A stretch of 64,000 nt of DNA from a virus, in the IMG/VR virus record IMGVR_UViG_3300017917_002937, positions 21,172 through 85,171 of that record; one strand, given 5' to 3'. A program made the position numbers and the translations under genes. The notes beneath the pieces were generated by a model. It was not told where the DNA came from. It saw only the letters and a program-made list of their open reading frames with translations, and did no database searches. Positions 1-21,500 of the stretch are shown here, piece by piece. Within the stretch, counting starts at the first letter, position 1; every line of letters starts with the position of its first letter.

Positions 1-645
1 ACTAGACATATTAACAGTGCGTTCAATGAAACTCTGTGTTTCCTTGTTCTCGCCCTGTGCATCATCCTGCGTTTTCTGTAATTTATTGTCAACATAAAAT
101 TTTAGTATGTTAGGTTTACGACCACGTTCAATCTTATAGTCTGTACCATTTACGTTAAAATCTAATGTAACTAACATACCTTTACTATTGGTACGATTTA
201 CAAGATTATCCTTACGTATATTATTTATTGGTACACCAAATAATGCATAACATAACCCTTGGATTAAGGTTGTGTTATGTGACAGTATTTCGTTAGTGTA
301 ATATCTATGGTCAGGTGAATCAACGGTAATATCGTACATGTTTTCTTCTCTAGTCGAAGAAGTAATTGTGTGTACCTTTTCAATTCCTGATGAAGTTAAT
401 ATATGTGATTTATAAGGAATTAAGTTTTTTACAAATATTTCTGTAGCATTATCAGTGAAAACAATATGATCGTCAGCACATTCTAGCTGTTTTCCTGTTT
501 CTGTTTCTATTGTCCAAACAGTATAAGGTATTGTTTTGTGTATTTTGGAAATTGGCTTCCAACCAGTATCAGTTTCTATTTCTAAATTATTTAAATTTAG
601 ACTTTCTATGAATTTTCTTTTTACTGATTCAGAAAGTTTATGCAT
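1..645 (-). CDS. 46: gp46 recombination endonuclease, C-terminal part with intein C-fragment (fractured gene, partial)
   Basis: This frame runs off the left edge; 215 codons are visible. The start is an ATG at 645, with AAGGA at 661-657 upstream as a ribosome site. Residues 1-124 are an intein C-fragment. It has a block-B-like CADDHIV (about residues 56-62), a block-F-like YDITVDSPDHRYY (104-116), and the terminal block G ending in Ser-His-Asn (122-124). The next residues, TTLIQGLCYALFG, complete the Walker A P-loop of gp46 and are the C-extein. Gp46 is the SbcC/Rad50-like ATPase partner of gp47 in phage recombination and DNA processing. The piece upstream on the same strand (1669-1938) supplies the first half, and protein trans-splicing would be needed to make a working ATPase. 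The start overlaps the end of the homing endonuclease gene in another frame. The call is sound on motifs; splicing activity is inferred. Confidence 0.9.
   Translation of the reverse strand, partial: MHKLSESVKRKFIESLNLNNLEIETDTGWKPISKIHKTIPYTVWTIETETGKQLECADDHIVFTDNATEIFVKNLIPYKSHILTSSGIEKVHTITSSTREENMYDITVDSPDHRYYTNEILSHNTTLIQGLCYALFGVPINNIRKDNLVNRTNSKGMLVTLDFNVNGTDYKIERGRKPNILKFYVDNKLQKTQDDAQGENKETQSFIERTVNMSS
274..645 (-). other. Split-intein C-fragment (124 aa, blocks B-F-G)
   Basis: The intein boundary is set by the C-terminal His-Asn followed by Thr at the +1 extein position; the junction lies between bases 274 and 273. Block B (threonine/aspartate-histidine type, ADDH) sits in this C-fragment rather than in the N-fragment, so the split point is much closer to the N-terminus than in ordinary split inteins. 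The first 20 or so residues (lysine/glutamate-rich) look like a leader before the intein fold. Confidence 0.85.
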
Positions 646-1709
646 TTGTTGATTATTCCTTGTTTGTCTTTTTTGTATTCCGACTCCCAGATTATTAATA
701 CAGTGTACCCATCATCATTAAGTAACTTTATTTTTTGACGGTCATGATCCCATATTTTTTCTGCGGTTGTTTTTTTTATGACATCTGTGGCTTTAAATTT
801 GTTAGGATTGGCATGCCAATAGTCACCATAGAACTCTATAATTTTTTTTTGTAGAACATCAATACAATCTATAGAGTATGACATATTGTTTATTCTTAAT
901 ACAACCTCATTATAACCAAACTTTATATTTGGGATATTGCATTTTATGGATTCAAACAACTCAAGTGATATTTTTGAAAATCCACCATGTAATCCCGATT
1001 TTTTTAAAGAAGACAGCCATTTAATTTGTCGTTCGCTCCAAATTTGTAATCCTTTTTCTTCTCCATATTTTTCAACACATTTTTTTTGTGAAAATAAAGT
1101 TTGAGCTTCTGTAACTTTGTTTGTTGCTTCTTCTTTTGAATAGCCTCGTAACATCCAATACTCAATAGTACGATGACTATGTGCTCTTATACGGTTAACA
1201 TTTCTGTTTTTTGATGCTTTCGCTCCCATGCTATTATTAAAGTTTTTTTGATTTTGTGCCAAAAATAAGGCGATTTCATCATCGTACCCTTTATTAATCC
1301 AATATTCTTTTCTTATAGGTCTTCTAGAATTTCTTTCAAACTCAGCCTCGGCGAATGTATATTTTTTTCCTGTTTTAGGATTAATTCTGTCTGTCCAAAA
1401 ATTAATAGAGTAAGTGCTTTTTCTTACTGTTTTACTATTAATGTCCTTCATACACATTTTAGCCTTAATTTCTGCTGACAGTTCGTCCCAACCCCTACTA
1501 AGCCAATATTTTTTTCCTCCCTTACCTACTCCAGGTAAGGTTAGCATATTTTGTCTTACAATGGCTTCACATTTTTTAACACTAGTTATGTCAACATGAC
1601 ATAACAATTTTTCTCTAATTGATGCCATGAGGTTAGGTTCTATGTTTTTAATAATTTCTATCAATGTTTTATCTATTATTTGGGTCAGTGTAAATTTTGG
1701 CTGCTTCAT
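621..1709 (-). CDS. Vsr/EDxHD-family homing endonuclease lying between the two halves of gp46
   Basis: The 362-residue protein ends in a Vsr-like nuclease domain (about residues 255-350). Candidate catalytic positions are E268, D281/D284, the GDYWHANP block (D296, H299) and D321/D323, followed by the conserved GYTVLIIWE strand. The N-terminal two thirds carry three divergent units of the form YW-(L/I/M)-x-(R/K)-G-(W/Y) followed by an acidic patch (near 68, 136 and 184), probably DNA-recognition modules. The start at 1709 has a strong ribosome site (GGGAG, 1720-1716), so the gene can be translated on its own. It overlaps the stop of the upstream gp46 half by 41 bases and the start of the downstream half by 25, each in a different frame. 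This arrangement matches the 'fractured gene' architecture known from marine phage metagenomes, where such enzymes cut intein-free alleles to spread the insertion. Confidence 0.85.
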   Translation of the reverse strand: MKQPKFTLTQIIDKTLIEIIKNIEPNLMASIREKLLCHVDITSVKKCEAIVRQNMLTLPGVGKGGKKYWLSRGWDELSAEIKAKMCMKDINSKTVRKSTYSINFWTDRINPKTGKKYTFAEAEFERNSRRPIRKEYWINKGYDDEIALFLAQNQKNFNNSMGAKASKNRNVNRIRAHSHRTIEYWMLRGYSKEEATNKVTEAQTLFSQKKCVEKYGEEKGLQIWSERQIKWLSSLKKSGLHGGFSKISLELFESIKCNIPNIKFGYNEVVLRINNMSYSIDCIDVLQKKIIEFYGDYWHANPNKFKATDVIKKTTAEKIWDHDRQKIKLLNDDGYTVLIIWESEYKKDKQGIINKCINFLNQ

Positions 1710-1938
1710 ATAATTCTCCCATAGTTATAGAGCATATCTCACCTGTGAGAGTGTTTCTTACTCTAACTATAGTATTTATCCCAACGCACTTACCAGTACC
1801 ATTACGTGCACCGTCACCACCTAAGTCTAAGTTCTCACCTAATATTAGTGTTAACTCTTTTCTATCAAAGTTTACTGCTTGTGTGACTTGTCCAATAGAC
1901 AAAAAATTACGCAAGGTTATATTTTTTAGTGTTATCAT
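1669..1938 (-). CDS. 46: gp46 recombination endonuclease, N-terminal part with intein N-fragment
   Basis: This 89-residue protein starts with the N-terminus of an SbcC/Rad50-type ATPase (LKNITLRNFLSIG) and reaches the Walker A motif GARNGTGK at residues 43-50. At residue 51 the reading changes to an intein block A (CVGINTIVRV, Cys as first residue), and the frame stops after only 39 intein residues. The ATG overlaps the gp47 stop (ATGA), so the two are translationally coupled. The remainder of the ATPase is encoded at 1-645. Without trans-splicing the product would have no intact P-loop. The P-loop lysine is the last N-extein residue and the following threonine is the first C-extein residue, a common intein insertion point in ATPases. 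Confidence 0.9.
   Translation of the reverse strand: MITLKNITLRNFLSIGQVTQAVNFDRKELTLILGENLDLGGDGARNGTGKCVGINTIVRVRNTLTGEICSITMGELYEAAKIYTDPNNR
1672..1788 (-). other. Split-intein N-fragment (39 aa, block A only)
   Basis: It begins with the Cys codon at 1788-1786 directly after the P-loop Gly-Lys and stops before any block B. Typical split inteins have roughly 90-100 residue N-fragments; this one resembles the rarer 'atypical' inteins with very short N-pieces. The final residues overlap the coding start of the endonuclease gene in another frame. Confidence 0.85.
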
Positions 1939-2948
1939 AGTGTGTTATAGATATCCAATAATAATTTTTTATCAAAACTATTACTTTCAATAGCGTTAAT
2001 CTGATCTACGATGATTTGGTCAACGCTTTCAAATTTCAGTCCCTCAAAATTACCTTGGTCAACATTTTCTAATTTCATTGGTATTAATGTCATTTCACGT
2101 AGTTTGTATTCGGGAATAAATGTTTCACGTAGAAAGTTAGCTTCTTCATAACTTATATCAATATCTAGGTGTACCCTAACATGGCTATCAATTAATAGCA
2201 AGCCCTGTGGATTATCTAATATATCGCTAAGTTTATGTACACGGTATACAGGTTGTCTTGGCCAACTATGAAAAACAGGGTCTTTACCCCATTCTAATAT
2301 CATCATACCACGTGCATCATCACCTGCGTCAGCATAATTATGCGGGAAAGCGTTACCTATATACCAAATATTTTTACGTGCTTGTCGTTTATGAAAATGT
2401 CCACTGAAAGCACTTTCAAAACCAACAAAATGTTCTTCATTAATTTCGCCATGATCTGGCATCTCTACCATAGCATTCATATAAAAATGAGGTAATTCTA
2501 AATGTCCAAACAAATATTTACCTGACATTTTTTTGATTTTCTTGTAGTCATCCTGTACTAACCATGGACAAATAACTACATCATCTTGTTTAAAAAAATC
2601 ATTAACAATGTGTACATTTGGTAAGTGATTAGCCCATTCTACACTATGAATGTCACGACGGTCACGATAATATAAGTCATGGTTGCCTGGAATAAAATAT
2701 ACTTGGCTAAAGTTTTGATTTAGTTTTTCTAATGCTTTTAATCCAAATTGTAATGTTTGGATGTTTATACTAGCACGATGATGATTATAGTCACCTAAAA
2801 AGAAACAAGTATCACATTGTTCCTTTTTAGCTTTATCTATGAACCAATCAACAAAGTTAGCACAATCAATATTGTGCTGTAAACTATTTGACTTTAAACC
2901 GAAATGCACGTCGGTAAAAATTGCTGCCTTTTTAAATAAATTACTCAT
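1935..2948 (-). CDS. 47: gp47-like recombination endonuclease subunit (Mre11/SbcD-type phosphoesterase)
   Basis: The 337-residue protein has the calcineurin-like metallophosphoesterase motif series in order: DVHFG (13-17), GDYNHH (52-57), GNHD (88-91) and GHFH (183-186), which bind the two catalytic metals. Length and motif spacing fit T4 gp47, the nuclease subunit of the gp46/gp47 complex that resects DNA ends for recombination-dependent replication. It lies immediately upstream of the gp46 N-terminal half and overlaps it by four bases (ATGA), as expected for subunits made in fixed ratio. The stretch upstream of its ATG contains a plausible sigma70-type promoter rather than a clear ribosome site. 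Confidence in the family is high. Confidence 0.95.
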   Translation of the reverse strand: MSNLFKKAAIFTDVHFGLKSNSLQHNIDCANFVDWFIDKAKKEQCDTCFFLGDYNHHRASINIQTLQFGLKALEKLNQNFSQVYFIPGNHDLYYRDRRDIHSVEWANHLPNVHIVNDFFKQDDVVICPWLVQDDYKKIKKMSGKYLFGHLELPHFYMNAMVEMPDHGEINEEHFVGFESAFSGHFHKRQARKNIWYIGNAFPHNYADAGDDARGMMILEWGKDPVFHSWPRQPVYRVHKLSDILDNPQGLLLIDSHVRVHLDIDISYEEANFLRETFIPEYKLREMTLIPMKLENVDQGNFEGLKFESVDQIIVDQINAIESNSFDKKLLLDIYNTL

Positions 2949-2954
2949 TTTATA

Positions 2955-2983
2955 AGTATAACTTTAATTTTTACACAATTCAA
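2955..2983 (-). promoter_or_regulatory. Candidate sigma70-type promoter for gp47
   Basis: On the minus strand, TTGAAT (2983-2978) is followed by a 17-base spacer and TATACT (2960-2955). Transcription would start about at the gp47 ATG, giving a leaderless or very short leader transcript. No convincing ribosome site is visible before that ATG, which is consistent with this but not proof. In AT-rich DNA such matches occur by chance. Confidence 0.35.
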
Positions 2984-2996
2984 AGTTATTGGTTAA

Positions 2997-3896
2997 TTAT
3001 TCTTCAAAGACTGGACCTATAGATCCAACTCCTTGTCTAGACCAAGAAGGATTTAATCCATTTATTTCTAAAATGTCATCACGTATGTTTTGATTTCGTT
3101 TTTCTGTGTTTAATACACGACAGAAACTATTTGTTATAGCGGCAGTGTAATAAGCAAATGGGTTAGCTGACTTCGCTTCATTGAATCGTAAACCCACATA
3201 TGTAAGTTGAAGTATTGCACTATTTTGCATTTCATCTCTGTAAGTATACCCACGCCAATTATATTTCATGGCATATTTTTCACACATCATAATATACATT
3301 CTAGCCAATTTATCTGTAATTGTACCGTGTTCCTTGCTAAATTTACCAGTCTTGATACCACCTGTCCAATGACTTTTACCTACACAATAAAAACTATCAT
3401 TTTCATCAATTTTGTAATGTTGAAAAGGTGGAAAATTTACTTTAACATGAACCATGTCGTCTACTTCATCTTTAGTAGTTGTATCTTCTAATTCAACAAA
3501 TATATCATCTTCATCGTCTTCAAATTCAAAAATATCAATAGCGGTTCTTTTTTTATTAGTTTTCCTAGGTTGTTTAGTAGATATAGGTATATGTTCCCAA
3601 GTCATTACCCTAAACACTAAATCTGTAGTAGGTATTGATTTTGGATCTACAAGGTCTTTAGCTCCTTTTTCTAATGATAATCTTAGTGCTCTATTTTCTT
3701 TAGCCTGTTTTATAATATCACGTTTTTTTGCATATTTAAAACATTCTTCAAGTGAACTTTGCGGCATGTCAATAATTAAATCATACATATGATATTCTTT
3801 TTTAGTAAAATAACAATATGATGATTTGCTTGTGTGTATTTCTTTTAATATGTCTTTATTGTTAAGGTAGTTAACCGGTTTTTTGGAGGTACTCAT
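2997..3896 (-). CDS. 55: gp55-like late-transcription sigma factor
   Basis: The 299-residue protein has a C-terminal region (about 200-285) with the pattern seen in T4-like gp55: a YTYRDEMQNSAILQL block, then ANPFAYYTAAITNSFCR and an asparagine/arginine-rich segment. This corresponds to a minimal sigma region 2 that binds RNA polymerase and recognises the late TATAAATA box. The N-terminal 190 residues include an acidic stretch (about residues 124-142) and are longer than in T4 gp55 (185 residues in total). It is the first gene of the minus-strand block and is divergently transcribed from the tail genes, many of which carry TAAATA boxes upstream. An AAAGGA ribosome site precedes the ATG. Confidence 0.85.
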   Translation of the reverse strand: MSTSKKPVNYLNNKDILKEIHTSKSSYCYFTKKEYHMYDLIIDMPQSSLEECFKYAKKRDIIKQAKENRALRLSLEKGAKDLVDPKSIPTTDLVFRVMTWEHIPISTKQPRKTNKKRTAIDIFEFEDDEDDIFVELEDTTTKDEVDDMVHVKVNFPPFQHYKIDENDSFYCVGKSHWTGGIKTGKFSKEHGTITDKLARMYIMMCEKYAMKYNWRGYTYRDEMQNSAILQLTYVGLRFNEAKSANPFAYYTAAITNSFCRVLNTEKRNQNIRDDILEINGLNPSWSRQGVGSIGPVFEE

Positions 3897-18500: not shown

Positions 18501-21500
18501 CATTGTCTACGTTTGGTGGTTTAAGTTATAACACTGATTATTATGTTCAATCAATTGTTAATTCAACAACTTTAAAATTAAGTACAACAGTAAATGGAGA
18601 TCCAATTAATTTGACTACAGGTTCAGGTACAATGAATTTTGATTGGACTCCTAGAAGCACTGAAATTACTATTGCAGCAGATGACGTTACAGGCTTATTA
18701 ACAGAAGGTAACTATATTACCGACTCTACTAATTTATTACCAAATAACTCTTATATTGTAGAAATTACAGGTACTACTACATTTACAATTACAGTAAGTT
18801 GGCCAGAAAGTTCTAATCCATTTTTTACATCAACGAGTGTAGCATCATTTATTACTACAGATACTACTGTTGATAATTATGCACTGTTTGATGGAGCAAG
18901 AATTGTTTTTGCAAATGACACAAACTTAAATGTTAGAAATAAAATATACATTTCTAAATTTCAAAGTATTACAGGAACAAGCACACCAGTTATAACATTA
19001 ATCGAAGCACTAGATGGTACAGTATATGAAAACGATCAAACTGTAAGTAAGAGGGGTTATAACAACACAGGTATAGATTTTTATTTTGATGGAAATAATT
19101 GGATAAAAGGTCAACAAAAAACAGATATAAATCAAGCTCCATTATTTGATATATTTGATAATAACGGAATAAGTTTTGGAAATAGGGACATATATGTTGG
19201 TTCAAATTTTAATGGCTGTAAACTATTCAGTTATAGTATAGGAAACGGTATCGATGATATAGTATTAGGATTTCCTATAAAGTATAGTAATATTGATAAT
19301 ATCGGTGATATTTCTTTTGATGTGAATTTAAACAGTGACACATTTGATTATGTTACAGGGTCAACACCTATTAATCAAAATGTAAGTAAAGGTTATGTTT
19401 ATAATTATTTGACTAGAGAATTATATGAAAGAATGTTGGGTTGGCAAACAGCAAAATATCCAAGTGTGCAATATCAGCTTTTCCAGTTTAACTACGTATT
19501 AGGGGATGATAATTCATTTTTATGTGATGTGGCTGCTAATATTGTTGATAGTTGGCCTAACATTAGAGTTTTTATTAATAATAATTTAGTAGCAACTGAT
19601 AACTTTACAACATTAATTGGTAGTAATTCAACTACTGTTACTATTGATTCTATTTTACTTTTAGAAAATACAGTTATTCAAATTTTAATACTTAGTGATC
19701 AAGTTAGTTTAACAGCTTATTATACCACTCCTATTAACTTAAATAATAATCCGTTTAATGTAAACATAACTTCTGTTAATGTTGGTGAAATAAGAGGGCA
19801 ATATCAAAGTATATTTTATAATAATACTAATTTAACAGGTCAAGTTTTTGGATCAAATAATTTTAGAGACTTGGGTAATTTAGTACCATATGGTGACAGA
19901 ATAATACAAAATAGTGCCAGTCTTGTATTACCTGGAGTCTTTTTAAGAAAACAAGATTGTAATTTGTTTGACGCACTTTTGTTTAATAGTAAACAATATA
20001 TTTTATATAAAACTTTACTTGTTTATACTGTTAATAATTCAAATTATGAACAAAGATATAATCCTAGTGAAATTTTAGATGACGCTCTTGATCAAATAAG
20101 TGCATCAAAAACTGACAGTATGCCATTCTTTTGGAGTGATATGCTACCAGGTAAAGCAGCTTATATTATTAACAATTACACCTTTGCTAATAGTTTAAGT
20201 GTTTCAGTTTATCCACTGTCTAAGATTTATGATTTTACCTCTGCAAATTATAATGGATTGTTGGTATACTTACAAAGAACTGCAAATAACATTGTAAATA
20301 CGACACAACTTATTATCAATCAAGATTATACAGTAAGTGCTACAGCACCATCACTCACTATCACACTTCAATTACAACCTGGCGATACTATAATTGTAAA
20401 AGAATATAATCAAACATATGGAAGTTATGTACCAAACACTCCAACTAAATTAGGTCTATATCCTTCATTCATTCCTGAAGTTGTACTGGATACAACATAT
20501 TCTACCCCAACATATTTTATAAAAGGACATGATGGTTCATATACTAAATTATATGGCGATTATGATAGTACCAATAATTTACTTATTGATTTTCGTGATC
20601 AAGCTTTACTAGAATTTGAACGAAGAATTTATAATAATTTAAAAATTAATGATATAATACCTATACAATCTTACGAAATAACACCTGGCTTTTTTAGAGA
20701 TACAGGTTATAGTTATAATGAATGGTTAGAAATTTATAGTGTAAACTTTTTAAATTGGATAGGTCAAAATCGTTTAGATTATGAATCACAAATTTATAAT
20801 AAAAATAATCAATTCACATTTAATTATGACAATAGCGGAATTAAATTAAACAATAAACCAATTGAACAGGGTTATTGGAGAGGAGTCTATACTTATTTCT
20901 ATGACACTAGTACTCCTAATCTAACTCCTTGGGAAATGATTGGGTACAAAAATCAGCCTAATTGGTGGACCGATCGTTATGGTCCTGCACCATACACAAG
21001 TAATAATTTAATACTTTGGGAAGATATGGCTAATGGTATCGATTATAACAATGGTAATCCAATTGTCATAAACGAACTTAAGAGACCTGAGTTATTACAA
21101 GTTTTGCCAGTTGATTCTTATGGTAATTTATTAAGCCCATTTGATAGTATTGTAGGTAATTTCAACGAAAGACTATTTAAAAATGATTGGAAAGTTGGCG
21201 ACGACGGTCCTGTTGAATTTAGCTATAGAAGAAGTAGTACCTATCCATTTGATTTGATGAAAATTTTAGCATTGACTAAACCTGCTAAGTTTTTTAACTT
21301 AGGAGTTGATGTTGACAACTATAAGTACAACTTAGAATTTAATCAATATTTGGTCAATGATAGAAGTCATTTAATTATATCAGACATTGAAATATATGGA
21401 AATGGTACTGCAAAAACAAGTTATATTAATTGGATAGTTGATTATCAAAAACAAGTTGGCATTCCAGCAACTACAAATATTACAAACATTCTTAAAAATC

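Follow-up and report, generated by a model that had tools for sequence, protein, structure and literature searches.

Dassa and colleagues reportedly described, in 2009, "fractured genes" in which phage enzymes of DNA metabolism are broken by split inteins, with a free-standing Vsr-like endonuclease between the pieces. The inteins of these genes, gp41-1 and NrdJ-1, have the canonical late split. The atypically split inteins are a second group of close relatives. AceL-TerL and GOS-TerL sit in the terminase gene, TerL, and are both naturally split after helix 1, at the S2 site (PMC13014065). They have a short IntN (25 and 37 aa, the latter from PMC11766414) and a long IntC. Natural IntN fragments of the atypically split class are 15–37 aa (PMC13014065). 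VidaL is likewise atypically split, but one site earlier, at S1, with an IntN of 16 aa (PMC13014065). In addition, contiguous mini-inteins are present in TerL of the Ackermannviridae (Vibrio phages Kuja and BX-1/VAP7, and Kuttervirus). These are single open reading frames (ORFs) without an endonuclease.

The locus analyzed here is of a kind that is already known, as it joins a fractured gene with a Vsr-like nuclease to an atypically split intein. It shares with the fractured genes of 2009 the broken enzyme gene, the split-intein halves, and the Vsr-like nuclease between them, but its intein has the early S2 split rather than the late one. The broken gene is gp46. As a host of split inteins, this gene appears to be both new and surprisingly common. 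The two together were not found in the literature searched, the enzyme list of Dassa and colleagues lying outside that search.

The window is a stretch of 64,000 nucleotides from a virus record of 85,171 bp. On its minus strand, gp46 is broken immediately 3' of the Walker A lysine codon (Table 1). The 5' piece (1938–1669) has 89 codons, 50 for the extein and 39 for IntN, and then a stop. IntN opens with block A from Cys1 (CVGINTIVRV...PNNR; full reading, CVGINTIVRVRNTLTGEICSITMGELYEAAKIYTDPNNR) and contains the helix-1 region ITMGELYEAA. The nuclease gene overlaps both of its neighbors, with its ATG (1709) within IntN and its stop (621) within IntC. The motifs of IntC are CADDH (block B), ENMYDITVDSPDHRYYT (ENMYDITV...H; block F), and ILSHN (block G). 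The C-extein, 534 aa in total, is complete in the record and extends beyond the window to contig position 19840. It matches PHROG 77 (SbcC-like; E 4e-83) and carries CYTCGH, which resembles a zinc hook, and VLFIDELLD, which resembles a Walker B motif. When Thr+1 of TTLIQGLCYALFG is joined to K50, the Walker A motif GxxxxGKTT is rebuilt, and it is complete only when joined. Directly upstream, the stop codon of gp47 overlaps the start codon of the gp46 N-fragment (ATGA), and a late sigma factor gene lies farther upstream. Thus, the Walker A (after joining), zinc hook, Walker B, and gp47 neighbor of a gp46/SbcC-Rad50 gene are all present. Elsewhere in the window, a single ORF of 6731 aa (15578–35773) was identified as a PHROG virion structural protein. 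The same phage record also has a free-standing GIY-YIG-like ORF (L002:7224-8018; YKTTHTNGKYYIGRH).

Table 1. Features of the fractured gp46 locus, listed in the direction of the minus strand.
Feature	Position in window	Strand	Basis
gp47 (SbcD-like), directly upstream of gp46	1935..2948	-	PHROG 100, E 1.5e-62
gp46 N-extein, 50 aa, C-terminal end GARNGTGK	1789..1938	-	ORF; identity with intact gp46; dN/dS
IntN, 39 aa, and stop TAA (1671-1669)	1669..1788 (coding 1788-1672)	-	ORF; L005/L006
GGGAGA, Shine-Dalgarno-like, 5 nt 5' of the nuclease ATG, within the IntN coding sequence	1715..1720	-	sequence inspection
Free-standing homing-endonuclease-like gene, 362 aa	621..1709	-	ORF in different frame; Pfam; dN/dS
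AAGGA, putative weak Shine-Dalgarno-like, 11 nt 5' of the IntC ATG, within the nuclease gene	657..661	-	sequence inspection
IntC, 124 aa, own ATG at 645, blocks B, F, and G	274..645	-	Pfam; profile; AlphaFold2 and Foldseek
gp46 C-extein start (Thr+1, TTLIQGLCYALFG)	1..273, cut at window edge	-	PHROG 77

The C-terminal fragment was identified as an intein by several routes. IntC matches Pfam Intein_splicing (E 8e-6), and a profile of 33 relatives matches the PDB entries of gp41-1 (3.6e-11) and VidaL (2e-9), as well as the Cat, NrdJ-1, and PolB16 inteins. IntC was modeled with AlphaFold2 at a mean pLDDT of 92.4. In a Foldseek search of this model against the PDB, VidaL was best and gp41-1 next, with the engineered atypical intein Cat at rank 10. 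For L187, an uninterrupted relative in TerL, the predicted structure is a full mini-intein (pLDDT 90), again with VidaL as the best match. Its model has a helix at 23–33 followed by a low-confidence linker, and the break of the window's intein aligns to this linker. On these models, the break is the atypical S2 site, in the loop after helix 1, as in AceL-TerL and GOS-TerL. Those two were likened by published description, and the comparison with Cat and VidaL used their PDB entries. Among 68 IntC sequences, A57, H60, M103, D105, and S122 are conserved in all, and H123 and N124 in 67. The block B threonine is replaced by alanine in all 68, so that the block reads CADDH and not TxxH. Since this alanine is common to the whole family, it is presumably tolerated. 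Charge pairing between IntN and IntC was examined and gave no clear pattern.

The intein fold, blocks A, B, F, and G, the splice-site residues, and the break after helix 1 that mark an atypically split intein are all found in the window. The parts listed in the initial annotation were each read at the locus: the GTGK end, the block A with its Cys, the 39-residue IntN, the endonuclease gene, the new ATG, the 124-residue C-fragment, and the His-Asn-Thr junction. Its proposal of an atypical split in a P-loop intein is supported by the S2 loop, the IntC fold, the conserved blocks, purifying selection, and intein-free alleles. It went too far in calling the N-fragment very short and such splits rare. 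With 39 aa, IntN is not very short, because the published natural range is 15–37 aa and it lies just above this, even if the split itself is early. As for rarity, 49 split members of the family were found, with an IntN of 27–57 aa (median 38). The window's intein differs from AceL-TerL and GOS-TerL in its host, gp46 instead of TerL, although the family to which it belongs occurs in phage terminase genes too. It also differs from GOS-TerL in its splice-site residues, which are Cys1/Thr+1 here and Ser1/Cys+1 there (PMC11766414). The Ackermannviridae mini-inteins interrupt TerL at the same point after the Walker A lysine and are about 40–51% identical to the window's intein over IntC, whereas the latter is split, has a nuclease, and is in gp46.

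The preferred reading, at a probability of about 0.93, is that a T4-like phage here carries a fractured gp46 (SbcC/Rad50-like) gene whose product is trans-spliced, with the nuclease as homing enzyme. Trans-splicing of the gp46 halves is supported by their sequences. Two polypeptides, gp46(1-50)-IntN and IntC-gp46(51-584), would be made from the overlapping string of gp47, gp46N, nuclease, and gp46C. Since the ATGs overlap, translation of these four may be coupled. The short IntN would dock onto a largely folded IntC and complete the HINT fold. Cys1 would then form the N-terminal thioester, the chain would be transferred to Thr+1 as a branched ester, the terminal Asn would cyclize with the assistance of the penultimate His, and ligation of the exteins as GTGK-TT would restore the Walker A loop. 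Before splicing, the ATPase would be without a P-loop. The Vsr-like nuclease could carry the unit of IntN, nuclease, and IntC into intein-free gp46 alleles. We infer these splicing steps from intein chemistry, and the activity of the nuclease, its target site, and the dependence of the phage on the spliced product are to be read in the same way.

Relatives of the locus were found by a search of viral contigs with the C-fragment as query. The fractured locus is also present in L004 (99%), L005 (89%), and L006 (79%). The contig of L004 begins inside the nuclease gene, and there the end of the nuclease, IntC, and the C-extein agree. L005 and L006 have the full layout. In the window, L005, and L006, both intein halves are equal in length and all segments are open except for the L006 nuclease; the IntN stop is at the same position. 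The same layout was found in about 20 further gp46 genes, and in the distant ones (L033, L034, and others) it lies at the same lysine. More than 20 related phages have an uninterrupted gp46, in which the first 50 residues run directly into the C-extein. At these empty sites, the junctions are exact to the codon and the N- and C-fragments are colinear with the intact protein. The N-extein is 73–98% identical to the N-terminus of the uninterrupted gp46 in the intein-free relatives L007–L030. Thus, as in a fractured gene, the enzyme gene is in two, the nuclease is between the halves, and intein-free alleles exist in 20 or more relatives. No plasmid relatives of the locus were found when they were looked for. 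The initial annotation had pointed to a second, ungapped gp46 and to a sequencing error as the two ways in which its reading could fail. No second gp46 N-terminus was found across the 85,171-bp record, which may be a fragment. Sequencing or assembly frameshifts could in principle have split an intein that was contiguous and had its endonuclease domain in frame, and contiguous inteins of the same family are known in TerL (L039, L043, and L187). However, the stops, starts, and overlaps are identical in L005 and L006, L004 agrees over its extent, and the inteins of the other gp46 genes are split likewise, two of them without any nuclease. The nuclease has its own start, Shine-Dalgarno-like sequence, and stop, in a separate frame. 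Because the layout recurs in this way, a frameshift artefact is regarded as excluded, and the probability left to it is very small.

It is also conceivable that splicing has been lost, so that the fractured gp46 is decaying or its pieces act by non-covalent association. Split phage enzymes without inteins can function in this way, as reported for split NrdA and gene 43 (PMC2988022), and the case for gp46 splicing is itself built from sequence. However, in the window the P-loop is cut after the lysine and 39 and 124 extra residues lie at the break, so ATP binding would hardly be expected. Dozens of loci retain the splice-site residues Cys1, His, Asn, and Thr/Ser+1. Selection was measured as dN/dS by the Nei-Gojobori method among the window, L005, and L006. 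The values are 0.05–0.15 for the N-extein, about 0.10 for the C-extein, 0.11–0.13 for IntC, and 0.12–0.56 for IntN, the last being noisy since IntN is short. For the nuclease, dN/dS is 0.16 (window against L005). Purifying selection acts on the exteins and on the intein halves, and in this they are unlike a pseudogene or a useless half. Loss of splicing is an improbable reading, if the least improbable of those set against the preferred one. Homing endonucleases of phages are often carried by introns, and the interruption might therefore be at the RNA level, as a group I or II intron with intein-like halves that are coincidental. Rfam gave no match at E<=1 in positions 1–3000, for a group I or II intron core or otherwise, and the RNA intron was rejected. 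Both halves encode intein blocks that are conserved and subject to purifying selection, and the predicted fold of IntC is that of an intein, which makes the intron scarcely credible.

The history of the insertion can be followed through synonymous sites. Between the window and L006, dS is 0.35 for the intein and 1.7 for gp46. Between the window and L005, it is about 0.3 and 0.8, and between L133 and L134, it is 0.12 and 1.35. At fourfold sites, the contrast between intein and gp46 has p 6e-5 for the window and L006 and is borderline for the window and L005 (p 0.02 when only the halves are counted, 0.06 when the nuclease is included). The intein is younger than its host gene in several pairs. 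Because synonymous divergence is lower in the intein than in the surrounding gp46, the simplest reading is that the unit of IntN, nuclease, and IntC has spread horizontally, i.e., by homing. T4 gp46 and gp47 have been named among the proteins possibly used in homing (PMC2988022), which by analogy raises the thought that an element in gp46 may aid its own spread.

The nuclease itself appears to be homing-endonuclease-like, with a C-terminus of the PD-(D/E)XK type that places it near Vsr/DUF559/MTES_1575. Among eight nuclease members, Pfam found MTES_1575 in seven (best 2e-7), DUF559 in four, and Vsr in one (2e-3). The matches of the window's nuclease are all below the Pfam cut-offs. In the PDB, Vsr was the sole match to the nuclease profile, and a weak one (E 0.09–0.11). 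The L006 nuclease has two 1-nt changes, both in A-runs. As these may be sequencing errors, decay of this gene was set aside as evidence.

The wider family was surveyed by scanning the collected loci with the IntC alignment, and host genes were assigned by C-extein clustering. A total of 70 distinct related inteins were found, in TerL (38), gp46 (25, with L183), a DnaB-type helicase (5), and two further AAA proteins, one of them ClpX-like. All insertions for which both ends could be read have the junction GK|C, with T or S as the first residue of the C-extein. Most split members have a gap of nuclease size between their halves. Gaps of 33–134 nt are found in L133 and L190 (gp46), L157 and L159 (TerL), and L182 (ClpX-like). 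L133 and L157 keep both intein halves, with the nuclease reduced to C-terminal scraps; therefore, the split has outlived its endonuclease. In L190, the halves are 33 nt apart and the nuclease is absent, so the endonuclease is lost in two gp46 cases. Among annotated named phages, TerL is the usual host of this IntC family, and more distant members are found in UvsX of PA5oct-like phages. No gp46 is among the matches listed. In PP408249.1 (121001–122170) and its relatives, which are PA5oct-like Pseudomonas phages, a Vsr-like nuclease is directly 5' of a UvsX/RecA-like gene that begins with an IntC of the present family. From these sequences, a fractured uvsX is likely in isolated PA5oct-like phages. 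The gp46 of Salicola phage SCTP-2 (L041:2352-5117) has a different, contiguous intein that starts with Ala at the same Walker A lysine, with the junctions GIGK|A...THN|TT.

In the IntC tree, most gp46 inteins are grouped, yet some gp46 and TerL rows are joined. A single gp46 clade has an AU p of 0.18 and is retained, because the tree rests on 124 columns. Jumping between genes was dropped as a firm claim, as the tree is compatible with one gp46 clade. Of 59 split forms, 52 have Glu at position 24 of IntC, whereas all eight one-ORF forms lack it and six of them have Trp (Fisher p 1e-6, with rows counted without regard to relatedness). The search pattern, I[EW]TDTGW, favored Glu and Trp at this position, but not their link with form. 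The prevalence of Glu24 in the split forms points to adaptation to trans-splicing and not to recent breakage.

Several terminase loci show other arrangements. In L035 (1484–4516; nuclease 1830–2783) and L178 (nuclease 2942–3796), the TerL P-loop intein is a single ORF, and another frame of the same stretch encodes a Vsr-like nuclease. The intein frame has no stops over the nuclease, while shuffles of synonymous codons average 19.1 and 17.5 stops, respectively, and never reached zero in 20,000. An out-of-frame HNH is known from a non-intein insertion (PMC11855218), whereas the nuclease of L035 and L178 is inside the intein. L149 (303–1016) has a one-ORF TerL intein with a 228-nt linker that is a remnant of an out-of-frame nuclease, and 37 of 20,000 shuffles of this linker were stop-free. 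It is possible that this intein was re-fused after loss of the nuclease. In L036 (3385–7133), TerL is broken by two different split inteins, one with a Vsr-type region and one with a GIY-YIG/NUMOD3 nuclease. As its genes read, this TerL would be assembled from three polypeptides.

An important recombination ATPase that would bind ATP only after two proteins have been stitched together offers a clean natural test of trans-splicing in a phage. With the survey, the handful of characterized atypically split inteins grows to about 50 natural sequences that share a single split site. Such sequences are useful when pairs are sought that splice fast or independently of each other and whose short IntN can be synthesized. 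L133, L157, and L190, in which the split is kept and the endonuclease lost, inform how split inteins originate and persist. Forms of the family include uninterrupted ORFs, sometimes with an endonuclease encoded out of frame inside. More tentatively, and with the odds leaning somewhat against it, these inteins may be one lineage that targets the Walker A lysine in ATPases, passing between uninterrupted, fractured, and nuclease-free split forms with residues fitted to the split. If true, the lineage would record the stepwise origin and maintenance of natural split inteins.
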